Assembly (NCBI GenBank): GCA_023489335.1 | Contig: JAMDCP010000011.1 | Span: 199,057-263,056 of the forward strand | Direction of reading: 5' to 3' | Origin: Deltaproteobacteria bacterium | Lineage (GTDB): Bacteria; SZUA-79; Acidulodesulfobacterales; Acidulodesulfobacteraceae | DNA length: 64,000 nucleotides | Shown: piece by piece, positions 2,152-52,994 of the stretch | How the letters are laid out: every line of letters begins with the position of its first letter | Position numbering within the stretch: the first letter of the stretch is position 1 | Notes under the pieces: generated by a model | The model's input: only the letters and a program-made list of their open reading frames with translations | The model's database searches: none | Told to the model about the DNA's origin: nothing | Program-made: the position numbers and the translations under genes

Positions 2152-2202
2152 ATAGGGCAGATTTGGTTTGTTTTTTAATTTATAAACTTAAGGAGGGGGT
2201 TT

Positions 2203-3027
2203 ATGAAAGTTTCGAAGGAACTTCATATATCTTCGCCCGCAAGTTCTGAAAAGCATGGCTTTTCAGCGGGCGAAGATGCCGAAGGCCGAAAGCGAAGCGG
2301 TCACAGTGTTGCGGAAGAAAAGGGCTTAAAAAAGATTTACGAGGGCAAAGCGAAAATACTTTATGAATATCCCGGGGATGAAAATAAGCTGGTAACTTAT
2401 TTTAAAGATGATGCAACGGCATTTAACGGGCAAAAAAAGGGAGTAATTATGAATAAAGGGGAATATAACAACGCTATATCCGCCTCTTTATTCAAACTTT
2501 TAAAAAAACACGGCATAGAAAGTCATTTCATCGAGAAATTATCCAATAGGGAAATGCTCGTAAATCATTTAAAAATGTTTCCCGTCGAGTTTGTGGTAAG
2601 AAACATCGCCGCAGGGAGCCTTGCAAAAAAGATGGGAGTGGAAGAGGGGGTTAAATTACTTTCCCCCGTGGTTGAATTATATTTTAAAAGCGACGAACTT
2701 GGCGACCCGATGATTAACGAGACTTATGTTAAGGCATTTGATTTAGGAGAGGTCAAGGATGTAGAAGAGGCTAAAATTATTGCTTTAAAGATAAATGAAA
2801 TTCTAAAAGATTTTTTTGATAAAAATGGACTTTTACTTGTGGACTACAAACTGGAATTCGGCACTTTAAACGGAAAAGTTCTTTTGGCAGATGAAATTAC
2901 TCCCGACACAATGAGGTTGTGGGATAAGATAACCCTTGAAAAAGTTGACAAAGATAGGTTCAGAAGAGACCTTGGCGGCGTTGAAGAGGCTTATAAGAGG
3001 GTTTACGATATAACCTCGAAAATATAA
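2203..3027 (+). CDS. purC: Phosphoribosylaminoimidazole-succinocarboxamide synthase
   Basis: SAICAR synthetase joins CAIR and aspartate with ATP in purine synthesis. The catalytic core starts at about residue 43 with KKIYEGKAKILYEYPGDEN, followed by TYFKDDATAFNG, EFVVRNIAAGS, LLVDYKLEFG and LADEITPDTMRLWD, all family hallmarks. The predicted protein is 274 residues because about 40 extra residues precede the usual start. That leader is not optional: the strong AAGGAGGGGG ribosome-binding site and ATG sit at its beginning, and there is no in-frame ATG, GTG or TTG close to the core. The leader is encoded by a long palindromic element (2229-2277 and flank), so the palindrome appears to have been inserted in frame and translated. 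The gene stands alone, transcribed from its own promoter and ending at a bidirectional terminator. Confidence 0.93.
   Translation: MKVSKELHISSPASSEKHGFSAGEDAEGRKRSGHSVAEEKGLKKIYEGKAKILYEYPGDENKLVTYFKDDATAFNGQKKGVIMNKGEYNNAISASLFKLLKKHGIESHFIEKLSNREMLVNHLKMFPVEFVVRNIAAGSLAKKMGVEEGVKLLSPVVELYFKSDELGDPMINETYVKAFDLGEVKDVEEAKIIALKINEILKDFFDKNGLLLVDYKLEFGTLNGKVLLADEITPDTMRLWDKITLEKVDKDRFRRDLGGVEEAYKRVYDITSKI
2229..2277. repeat. Palindromic element inside the purC reading frame
   Basis: The outer arms 2229-2239 (ATCTTCGCCCG) and 2267-2277 are perfect reverse complements, as are the inner arms 2246-2254 (CTGAAAAGC) and 2258-2266, around a three-base ATG loop with a six-base bulge on the left. The total stem is 20 bp. 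It encodes about 16 residues of the purC N-terminal extension. Just after it comes GCCGAAGGC. The outer arm sequence nearly matches the hairpin at 52881-52927, so this is probably a dispersed repeat family. Confidence 0.8.
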
Positions 3028-32210: not shown

Positions 32211-33608
32211 TTGATTAAATTTAAATCCGGCAGAGTGTTAGTTACCGGTATTTCAAAAGAACTTAATGCTACCTTAGAGGTTCCCGGCGACAAATCCATA
32301 TCCCACAGAGCCGTTATGTTAGGAAGCCTTGCCTCCGGAATTTCGAAGGTTTATAATTTATCGCTTTCGCGGGATAATCTGGCAACTATTGCGGCATTTA
32401 GAAAGCTTGGGGTAGTAATAACCGCCGCTCCGCCCGCTCAAAACAATAAAAACTCAAAAGATTTTGTAATTAACGGCGTTGGCCTTCATGGATTAAAAGA
32501 GCCGAAGACAATTATTAACACCGCTAATTCAGGGACGCTTACGCGCCTTATAGCCGGAATACTTGCCGGAAACGAATTTTTTTCCGTGTTATCGGGCGAT
32601 AAATATTTAAATTCCAGGCCTATGGGGCGCATAACGGAACCGTTAAGCCTCATGGGAGCAAAGATAACCGGGCGGGAAAACGGAAATTATCCTCCGATTG
32701 CCATTAAAGGAGGAAAACTAAAATCGATTTATTATGAAATGCCTGTTCCAAGCGCTCAGGTTAAATCCTGCATTATGCTTGCCGCTCTTTTTGCGGAAGG
32801 GGTTACCGTAATATATGAAAAAAAGGCGACAAGAGACCACACGGAAAACTTTTTAAAGCTTCAAGGCTGCCGTATTACCGTTGAAAATCCAAATGACGGG
32901 AACCTTATAACCGTGGAAGGCGGCGGCGAGCTTAAGCCTTTTGAGATTACCGTTCCCGGAGACTTTAGCAGTGCCGCTTTTTTTATTGCGCTGGGCATTT
33001 TGCATAAAAATTCCGAAATTATCATTAAAAATGTCCTGTTAAACGAGAAAAGAACAGGACTTTTAAAGGTTTTGGAGATGATGGGCGCTAATATAGAAAT
33101 AACCCTTGAAGACGAAAAATTGGAAAAGGTTGGAACTATCAAGGCAAAATATTCGAATCTGAAAGGGGTTGCCGTGCCGTCCGAATTAGTTTCCGATATG
33201 ATAGATGAGTTTCCTATTTTTGCGGTAATAGCATCATTTGCAGCCGGTATTACTAAAGTAACCGGAGCCAAGGAATTAAGAGTAAAAGAAAGCGACAGGA
33301 TTAAAACCATTGTTTCTAATTTAAGTCTTTTTGGGGTTAAAATTAAAGAATTGGAAGACGGATTCGAGCTTACCGGAAATCCGGGTTTAATTTTTGGCGG
33401 AAATGGTGTAAAATTAAACAATAAGGGTTTTGTGGCCGTGGATTCTTTCGGCGACCACAGGATTGCGATGTCAATGGTAATTCTGGGATTATTGCTTAAA
33501 AACATAGAGACCGAGGTTCGCGATGTAAGATGCATCGGCACTTCTTTTCCCGGGTTTTTCGACATCCTTTCTAAATTAATAAAGGAGAAGGGGAACAATA
33601 TGAAATAA
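32211..33608 (+). CDS. aroA: 5-enolpyruvylshikimate-3-phosphate synthase
   Basis: A 465-residue EPSP synthase. Blocks are VPGDKSISHRAVMLGSLASG, NTANSGTLTRLIAGIL, SRPMGRITEPLSLMGA, MPVPSAQVKSCIMLAALFA, VPGDFSSAAFFIALG, VSDMIDEFPIFAVIASFA, RVKESDRI and VDSFGDHRIAMSMVIL. The length is a little above the usual 430-450. It starts at TTG 32211 with GGGAGGG immediately before, giving MIKFKSGRVLV. The last five codons and the stop lie within the left arm of a long inverted repeat (33591-33644). It follows tyrA and precedes ispH; cmk, often between aroA and ispH in related genomes, is missing. Confidence 0.95.
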   Translation: MIKFKSGRVLVTGISKELNATLEVPGDKSISHRAVMLGSLASGISKVYNLSLSRDNLATIAAFRKLGVVITAAPPAQNNKNSKDFVINGVGLHGLKEPKTIINTANSGTLTRLIAGILAGNEFFSVLSGDKYLNSRPMGRITEPLSLMGAKITGRENGNYPPIAIKGGKLKSIYYEMPVPSAQVKSCIMLAALFAEGVTVIYEKKATRDHTENFLKLQGCRITVENPNDGNLITVEGGGELKPFEITVPGDFSSAAFFIALGILHKNSEIIIKNVLLNEKRTGLLKVLEMMGANIEITLEDEKLEKVGTIKAKYSNLKGVAVPSELVSDMIDEFPIFAVIASFAAGITKVTGAKELRVKESDRIKTIVSNLSLFGVKIKELEDGFELTGNPGLIFGGNGVKLNNKGFVAVDSFGDHRIAMSMVILGLLLKNIETEVRDVRCIGTSFPGFFDILSKLIKEKGNNMK

Positions 33609-33644
33609 CATGCAATTAATTGCCGGTTATTTCATATTGTTCCC
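33591..33644. repeat. 19-bp perfect inverted repeat across the aroA stop
   Basis: GGGAACAATATGAAATAAC (33591-33609) is exactly complementary to 33626-33644, around a 16-base loop that itself contains the palindrome GCAATTAATTGC. The left arm encodes the last residues and stop of aroA. No T-run follows, so it is a weak candidate for intrinsic termination; mRNA end stabilisation or a palindromic insertion are alternatives. Confidence 0.9.
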
Positions 33645-50995: not shown

Positions 50996-51055
50996 ATTTG
51001 TCATAATGACAAATATTAATATAAAAAATTAATTATTATTGTCATTATGACAAAT
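50996..51055. promoter_or_regulatory. Twin TTGTCATwATGACAA palindromes upstream of htrA
   Basis: Palindrome 1 is ATTTGTCATAATGACAAAT (50996-51014), and palindrome 2 is TTGTCATTATGACAA (51039-51053). The shared 15-bp core differs only in the central base, and the centres are 41 bp apart, about four helical turns. Being palindromic each, they also form a 17-bp inverted repeat (50996-51012 with 51039-51055). No T-run follows. They look like operators for a dimeric regulator rather than a terminator. Confidence 0.65.
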
Positions 51056-52844: not shown

Positions 52845-52994
52845 AAAAGGTATCCGATTTATTTTTTAAATACCCCGTCCATCTTTGCCTGCATAAAACC
52901 GTTGGTTTTATAAACGCAGGCAAAGATACAGCCTAAAGGCGGACCGCCACCCCTTTTAAAAAAGGGGAATTAAAAAATAAATCGGATACCTTTT
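52845..52994. mobile_element. 150-bp MITE-like element with 25-bp terminal inverted repeats
   Basis: The termini 52845-52869 (starting AAAAGGTATCCGATTT) and 52970-52994 are perfect 25-base inverted repeats. Inside, ATCTTTGCCTGC (52881-52892) pairs perfectly with 52916-52927, and ATAAAACC (52893-52900) with GGTTTTAT (52904-52911), making a 20-bp bulged hairpin with a three-base GTT loop. GCCTAAAGGC and CCCCTTTT/AAAAGGGG follow. No ORF is inside. The hairpin arms nearly equal those inside purC. A TTAT occurs near both ends, but a clean target duplication is not evident. Confidence 0.65.

Follow-up and report, generated by a model that had tools for sequence, protein, structure and literature searches.

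Palindromic repeats inserted in frame into protein genes are best known from Rickettsia and Wolbachia. The Rickettsia palindromic elements (RPE; Ogata et al. 2000, 2002), whose features are taken here from two reviews (PMC2229807, PMC10969869), are many-copy palindromes that occur in intergenic regions as well as in frame within unrelated conserved protein genes, and the RPE-bearing enzyme Gmk is translated and active. They are 105–146 bp in length (PMC2229807), and their ends, which carry 12-bp terminal inverted repeats, close a long stem. The protein-coding palindromic repeats of Wolbachia (Ogata et al. 2005, cited in PMC2229807) likewise lie in frame in protein genes. The enterobacterial ERIC and YPAL elements, single long stem-loops of 127 and 168 bp, are small, palindromic and MITE-like; their frames are open and become fused in frame to genes, and both empty and filled YPAL sites are known in relatives (PMC2229807). 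The dRS3 repeats of Neisseria follow the published pattern ATTCCC(N8)GGGAAT and belong, with NIME, to repeat-within-repeat mosaics (PMC3898611), REP sequences associated with RAYT carry a GTAG or CGTC tag at one end (PMC3733652), and in nematomorph mitochondria the same DNA encodes a strong palindrome and a protein (PMC6649704). Here we describe the start of a purC gene that very probably consists of two nested, non-autonomous mobile palindromic elements, nearly neutral in the proteins that carry them. The gene lies in a window of 64,000 nucleotides, which is the whole stretch of DNA analysed, from the metagenome-assembled genome (MAG) of an uncultured acid-mine bacterium (G000). It was compared with the congeners G001, G002 and G003 and with a set of 30 genomes of the family. 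The parts of the locus, including the two elements named AB and C, are as follows.

2190–2199, plus strand: Shine-Dalgarno sequence of purC (aaggaggggg), read in the sequence
2203–3027, plus strand: purC (SAICAR synthetase), open reading frame of 274 aa, with the element in codons 2–35
2205–2226, plus strand: 5' half of AB, hairpin AAGTTTC-GAA-GGAACTT, identical to G002 purC (the match to the AB covariance model R1 spans 2205–2303)
2227–2277, plus strand: C, a long hairpin nested in AB (match to the C covariance model R2 at 2225–2280, E = 7.2e-18)
2278–2303, plus strand: 3' half of AB, GCCGAAGGCC hairpin and CGAAAGCGAAGCGGTCA, identical to G002 purC over 26 nt

The initial annotation had placed a palindrome in frame inside purC, behind a strong Shine-Dalgarno sequence and an ATG, and this is borne out: the arms lie at 2229–2239/2267–2277 and 2246–2254/2258–2266, with the loop ATG at 2255–2257 and an unpaired bulge on the 5' side, and the frame is open from the ATG at 2203 through the element into PurC. 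A GGAGG precedes the ATG at the matching place in the relatives. The hairpin itself stands as described, yet the element is larger than had been thought, because the AB halves flank C and codons 2–35 (2205–2303) are made up of both. Similarly, the N-terminal extension is real and its proposed range, residues 1–42, is too wide; the added residues are about 3–35, the rest of the tail (SVAEEKG) being present also in the empty G001. Pfam SAICAR_synt matches PurC residues 44–268 only (E = 1.7e-80), and AlphaFold2 gives residues 1–32 a pLDDT below 50 and most of the core above 90, so that the insert is predicted to give the enzyme a flexible additional tail of about 31 residues, supplied by mobile DNA. 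The element is free of stops in the frame used and encodes the hydrophilic peptide KVSKELHISSPASSEKHGFSAGEDAEGRKRSG; tryptic peptides expected from it are ELHISSPASSEK and HGFSAGEDAEGR in PurC of G000 (and in its OtsA, see below) and ELHGAEGR in PurC of G002. Between codon 2 and the core there is no in-frame ATG, GTG, TTG or CTG, so a functional PurC must contain the element, barring initiation at a rare start. The element should thus be translated, and it is presumably transcribed.

An alignment of PurC from the relatives resolves the locus into layers, in which two empty congeners lack the extra residues and a third has the outer layer, AB, only. The distance from the ATG to the core is 33 nt in G001 (MKKSVAEERG) and G003, which represent the empty site, 78 nt in G002 (MKVSKELHGAEGRKRSGQRVAEGKS), which has AB only, and 126 nt in G000 (MKVSKELHISSPASSEKHGFSAGEDAEGRKRSGHSVAEEKG), which has AB and C; two measured genomes of another genus have 27 and 3 nt, and the N-terminal tails of PurC vary across the family. 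The net gain is +45 nt with AB and then +48 nt with C, the frame being kept in every state, and C in G000 can be counted as 51 nt replacing GGG of G002 or as 52 nt replacing TGGG. In the scenario that we favour, AB would have been inserted just after the purC start codon in an ancestor common to G000 and G002, and C would then have been inserted into AB without loss of frame at either step, the elements having spread by transposition-like copying. The cell would make a PurC with a disordered N-terminal tail that does little harm to the enzyme. AB followed by C would be the simpler order; loss of C from G002, if exact, would leave an identical pattern. As a separate observation, the AB halves of purC are more conserved between G000 and G002 than the enzyme around them: they are identical at 48/48 positions, against differences at 18 of 71 fourfold sites in the core, while the codon differences of the core (38 synonymous versus 10 nonsynonymous) indicate that purC is under constraint.

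AB is about 51 nt long and consists of two short covarying hairpins and an unpaired tail, in which GAAAGTTyC-GAA-GGAACTTCAyGAG is followed by a second short hairpin, variable in sequence and length, and then by CGARAGCGAAGCGG; a GAA triloop with C-G as its closing pair is common in these hairpins. Most AB copies are of 51 or 54 nt and the AB+C composite is of 98–99 nt. Lengths of 52, 53 and 55 also occur in genomes other than G002, and the finding that AB lengths in G002 are mostly multiples of three, which reflects two subfamilies, was dropped as evidence. C, of about 52 nt, has an arm of about 12 nt, then an unpaired bulge of 4–7 nt that is confined to the 5' side, followed by an 8-nt arm and a 3-nt loop, from which the arms run back. 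Eight chosen AB copies pair in 88/88 cells, with double changes in five pairs (15 double-change cells vs 4.9 in shuffles). Among 34 distinct C matches, 95.4% of cells pair and compensatory changes are found in 17 of 20 pairs (117 double-change cells vs 31 in shuffles); this alignment was fitted to the R2 model, so that the pairing count leans towards the model (slid controls pair in 36–48%), and in a few of its rows the palindrome is read in reverse. AB has no terminal inverted repeats of the whole unit, C itself being one palindrome, and a clear target-site duplication was not found for AB or C, the purC and otsA flanks differing between species. The AB consensus is open in four of six frames, and the composite in two to three of six, depending on how the terminal stop is counted. 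The C palindrome is phased: its forward peptide is ISSPASSEKHGFSAGEDA and its backward peptide ASSPAEKPCFSELAGEDI, so that nearly the same hydrophilic peptide (SSPA...AGED) is encoded in either orientation.

Both elements are multi-copy families. R1 matches occur in 25 of the 30 family genomes (10 in G000, 40 in G002, 63 in G009 and 35 in G011), and this covariance search of the 30 genomes gave none in G004, G013, G010, G006 and G005. R2 matches occur in 27 of the 30 (30 in G000, 24 in G002 and 56 in G022), the purC copy of C being the best in G000. Most AB copies are intergenic, about 8 of 35 in G002 lying within genes when counted by reading, and by the same means about 4 of the 30 C copies in G000 are genic and the rest mostly intergenic; such an excess fits selection that purges most genic insertions, and an insertion bias would look alike. 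Beyond the family, a scan of 84,980 species genomes with the AB core returned 19 stretches, the pattern being exact so that distant versions could be missed, and all of them are in Candidatus Acididesulfobacter diazotrophicus or other bacterial MAGs. Ca. Acididesulfobacter is presumably a member of Ca. Acidulodesulfobacterales. The main text of the description of that order (PMC6776010) mentions no palindromes, repeats or transposition. Searches of phages, plasmids and viral contigs for the element gave no match, and an Rfam search around purC gave zero matches above the gathering scores.

A search of the genome with 2203–2340 returned a match in another gene (93% over 101 nt) together with shorter pieces elsewhere, from which the two units were resolved, and several copies are found in frame in unrelated genes; the AB 3'-half unit of purC is also among the pieces present in other genes. 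The otsA gene of G000 carries an AB+C composite in frame at a junction that is empty in G002 (IIEEI-EGSNSGANG in G002 vs IIEEI-KVQKELHISSPASSEKHGFSAGEDAEGREQSGQ-GLNSGANG in G000); this part of the sequence differs in length among relatives. The AlphaFold model of OtsA is weak (mean pLDDT 63), and the bearing of its low-confidence 158–196 loop on the insert is only suggestive. In ruvB, G002 has an AB remnant (NKELHGSEAEG) and G000 has C inside this remnant at the same CTTC site (KKLRVSSPARPFSHAENAGEDAEAA), which repeats the step from AB to AB+C ahead of the Pfam domain. The ruvA of G002 has AB with a dRS3-like part in the linker after the HHH domain, absent from ruvA of G000. In PurC, RuvB and OtsA the insert falls outside the Pfam domains or is flanked by them, and genic copies in general sit mainly where additional residues are tolerated, in N-terminal tails, linkers and C-terminal ends. 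Candidate open insertions also lie in a methyltransferase, as antisense C, in a glycosyltransferase 9, as antisense AB joined to a dRS3-like part, and in the N-terminus of a secretin, and in G002 in the N-termini of a CusB-like adaptor and RapZ, the C-terminus of a CCG-domain protein, an L,D-transpeptidase and a nucleotidyltransferase. Open-frame AB copies upstream of glgA, atpH, a gspF-like gene and a GIY-YIG gene were rejected as translated copies: each either has a plausible start downstream of it or is part of an intergenic dRS3-like unit. In addition, a short ORF carries AB with a C-like hairpin in two genera (G000 C9:1876, L038; G011 C25, L194). Read by eye, the element brings an in-frame TGA in both, and the insertion seems to disrupt the ORF and to be common by descent or transfer.

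With these features the purC element works like an RPE and is not a member of that family on the features tested, so that the analogy drawn in the initial annotation holds for behaviour (in frame, palindromic, repeated and, given a usual start codon for the enzyme, translated) and not for membership. The likeness lies in open, in-frame insertion into conserved genes (purC, otsA, ruvB and ruvA) with empty or partial sites in congeners. Unlike RPE, the element is found in a host other than Rickettsia, its exact core having matched only Ca. Acididesulfobacter and bacterial MAGs; AB (51 nt) and AB+C (99 nt) are shorter than 105–146 bp; they form several separate hairpins with no end-to-end pairing instead of one long stem, the ends of the purC composite being unpaired in the predicted fold; and in purC two elements are nested. 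The exact AB-core scan, the only sequence comparison made with the Wolbachia repeats, named no Wolbachia among its matches. A nested second element is not reported for ERIC and YPAL in PMC2229807. In the nematomorph case the arms encode conserved protein regions, whereas the palindrome in purC was inserted as a repeat and lies outside that core. The purC case is apparently an independent instance in an uncultured acid-mine group, in which the steps of growth, empty, one element and two nested elements, are preserved at one gene. It offers a natural series in which to ask how proteins can take up selfish DNA and survive, and purC, otsA, ruvA and ruvB provide ready enzyme pairs with and without the insert.

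The rival that survives best, and which we still consider unlikely, is that the hairpin is maintained because, as an RNA or DNA structure, it controls purC through initiation or attenuation, with the added peptide as a by-product. It draws on the strong fold directly after the start codon (−36.9 kcal/mol vs a shuffled mean of −23.6; z = −4.4), on the compensatory changes in AB and C, and on the unusual conservation of the AB halves in purC, which exceeds what a purely neutral passenger should show and counts against our preferred explanation. However, the elements also lie at many intergenic places and in the middle of otsA and ruvA, in either orientation, which does not tie the structure to purC, and the congeners manage without it. 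When −60 to +140 was folded, predicted accessibility of the Shine-Dalgarno sequence and AUG was 0.72/0.20 in G000, 0.83/0.16 in G001 and 0.45/0.05 in G003, not below the empty relatives, and occlusion of the start site by the element is unsupported.

Movement as REP-type repeats by a Y1 transposase (RAYT/TnpA_REP) is disfavoured and a little less probable again. The hairpins do have one-sided bulges and Y1_Tnp is found in 19 of the 30 family genomes, including G000, yet G002 (97% completeness) has no Y1_Tnp match despite its 40 AB and 24 C matches, G004 and G013 have Y1_Tnp and no AB, and no fixed GTAG or CGTC tag stands at the aligned ends of AB or C. Misplacement of a repeat into purC during metagenome assembly is very improbable: repeats in a MAG are prone to misassembly and the otsA copy is on a 9.8-kb contig, but the separate genome G002 has AB at the same purC position, the purC and otsA flanks continue orthologous genes on both sides, and the two composites differ at 6/98 sites. 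An ordinary N-terminal extension with a chance hairpin, to which the variable PurC tails of the family might point, is refuted by the recurrence of the same 98 nt in otsA (92/98 identity, same frame), by tens of copies of each unit in relatives and by 0/200 shuffles folding as well.

Returning to nested mobile elements as the preferred reading, the site taken by C may bear on how such palindromes grow. The dRS3-like pattern ATTCCC(N8)GGGAAT, likened to the Neisseria repeats by pattern alone, surrounds many intergenic AB copies and some C copies, and in G002, TCCAG or TCCGG of such a unit lies just downstream of AB in 22 of 35 copies; the pattern is absent around the purC copy, which differs from dRS3/NIME in this respect. 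Among the dRS3-like hairpins in the loci examined, the loop is of 4 nt in 78, and in three a C hairpin of 50–52 nt stands exactly in its place, the outer arms being intact, as in the dRS3-like units L136, L140 and L147 of G000. As C stands in purC where G002 has TGGG and elsewhere in place of a dRS3-like tetraloop, it seems to take the place of four loop or junction bases, which is a pattern and not a demonstrated mechanism. One tentative, rather doubtful possibility is that C is a distinct class of mobile hairpin targeting palindromes (dRS3-like tetraloops and CAYGAG-type AB sites), in which case palindromes would grow by nesting and proteins would gain disordered segments in layers.

A further C-type hairpin lies within the window, in an element that resembles a MITE in its inverted ends.

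52845–52994, no strand assigned: MITE-like element between genes, its 31-nt terminal inverted repeats (I4) being 94% complementary
52878–52931, minus strand: C-type hairpin in this element, of opposite polarity to the purC copy (R2 match, G000:C1:251934-251987, E = 1.2e-6)

The resemblance first noted between this hairpin and that of purC is upheld, as a C-type match on the minus strand, and the GCC..A(A/T)A..GGC block said to follow both is not evidence of homology: the hairpins have opposite polarity, and the plus-strand 3' flank here corresponds to the 5' flank of the purC hairpin. The MITE-like elements of G000 form an intergenic family of about ten copies that share long terminal inverted repeats (AAAGGTATCCGATTTATTTT...), namely the window copy, L001, L002, L005–L007 and L009–L012, each holding a C-type hairpin of opposite polarity, and L012 holds a second one. 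Strong inverted repeats with little or no spacer are also seen in the window at 33591–33644 (27 nt, 93%) and 50996–51055 (26 nt, 85%).
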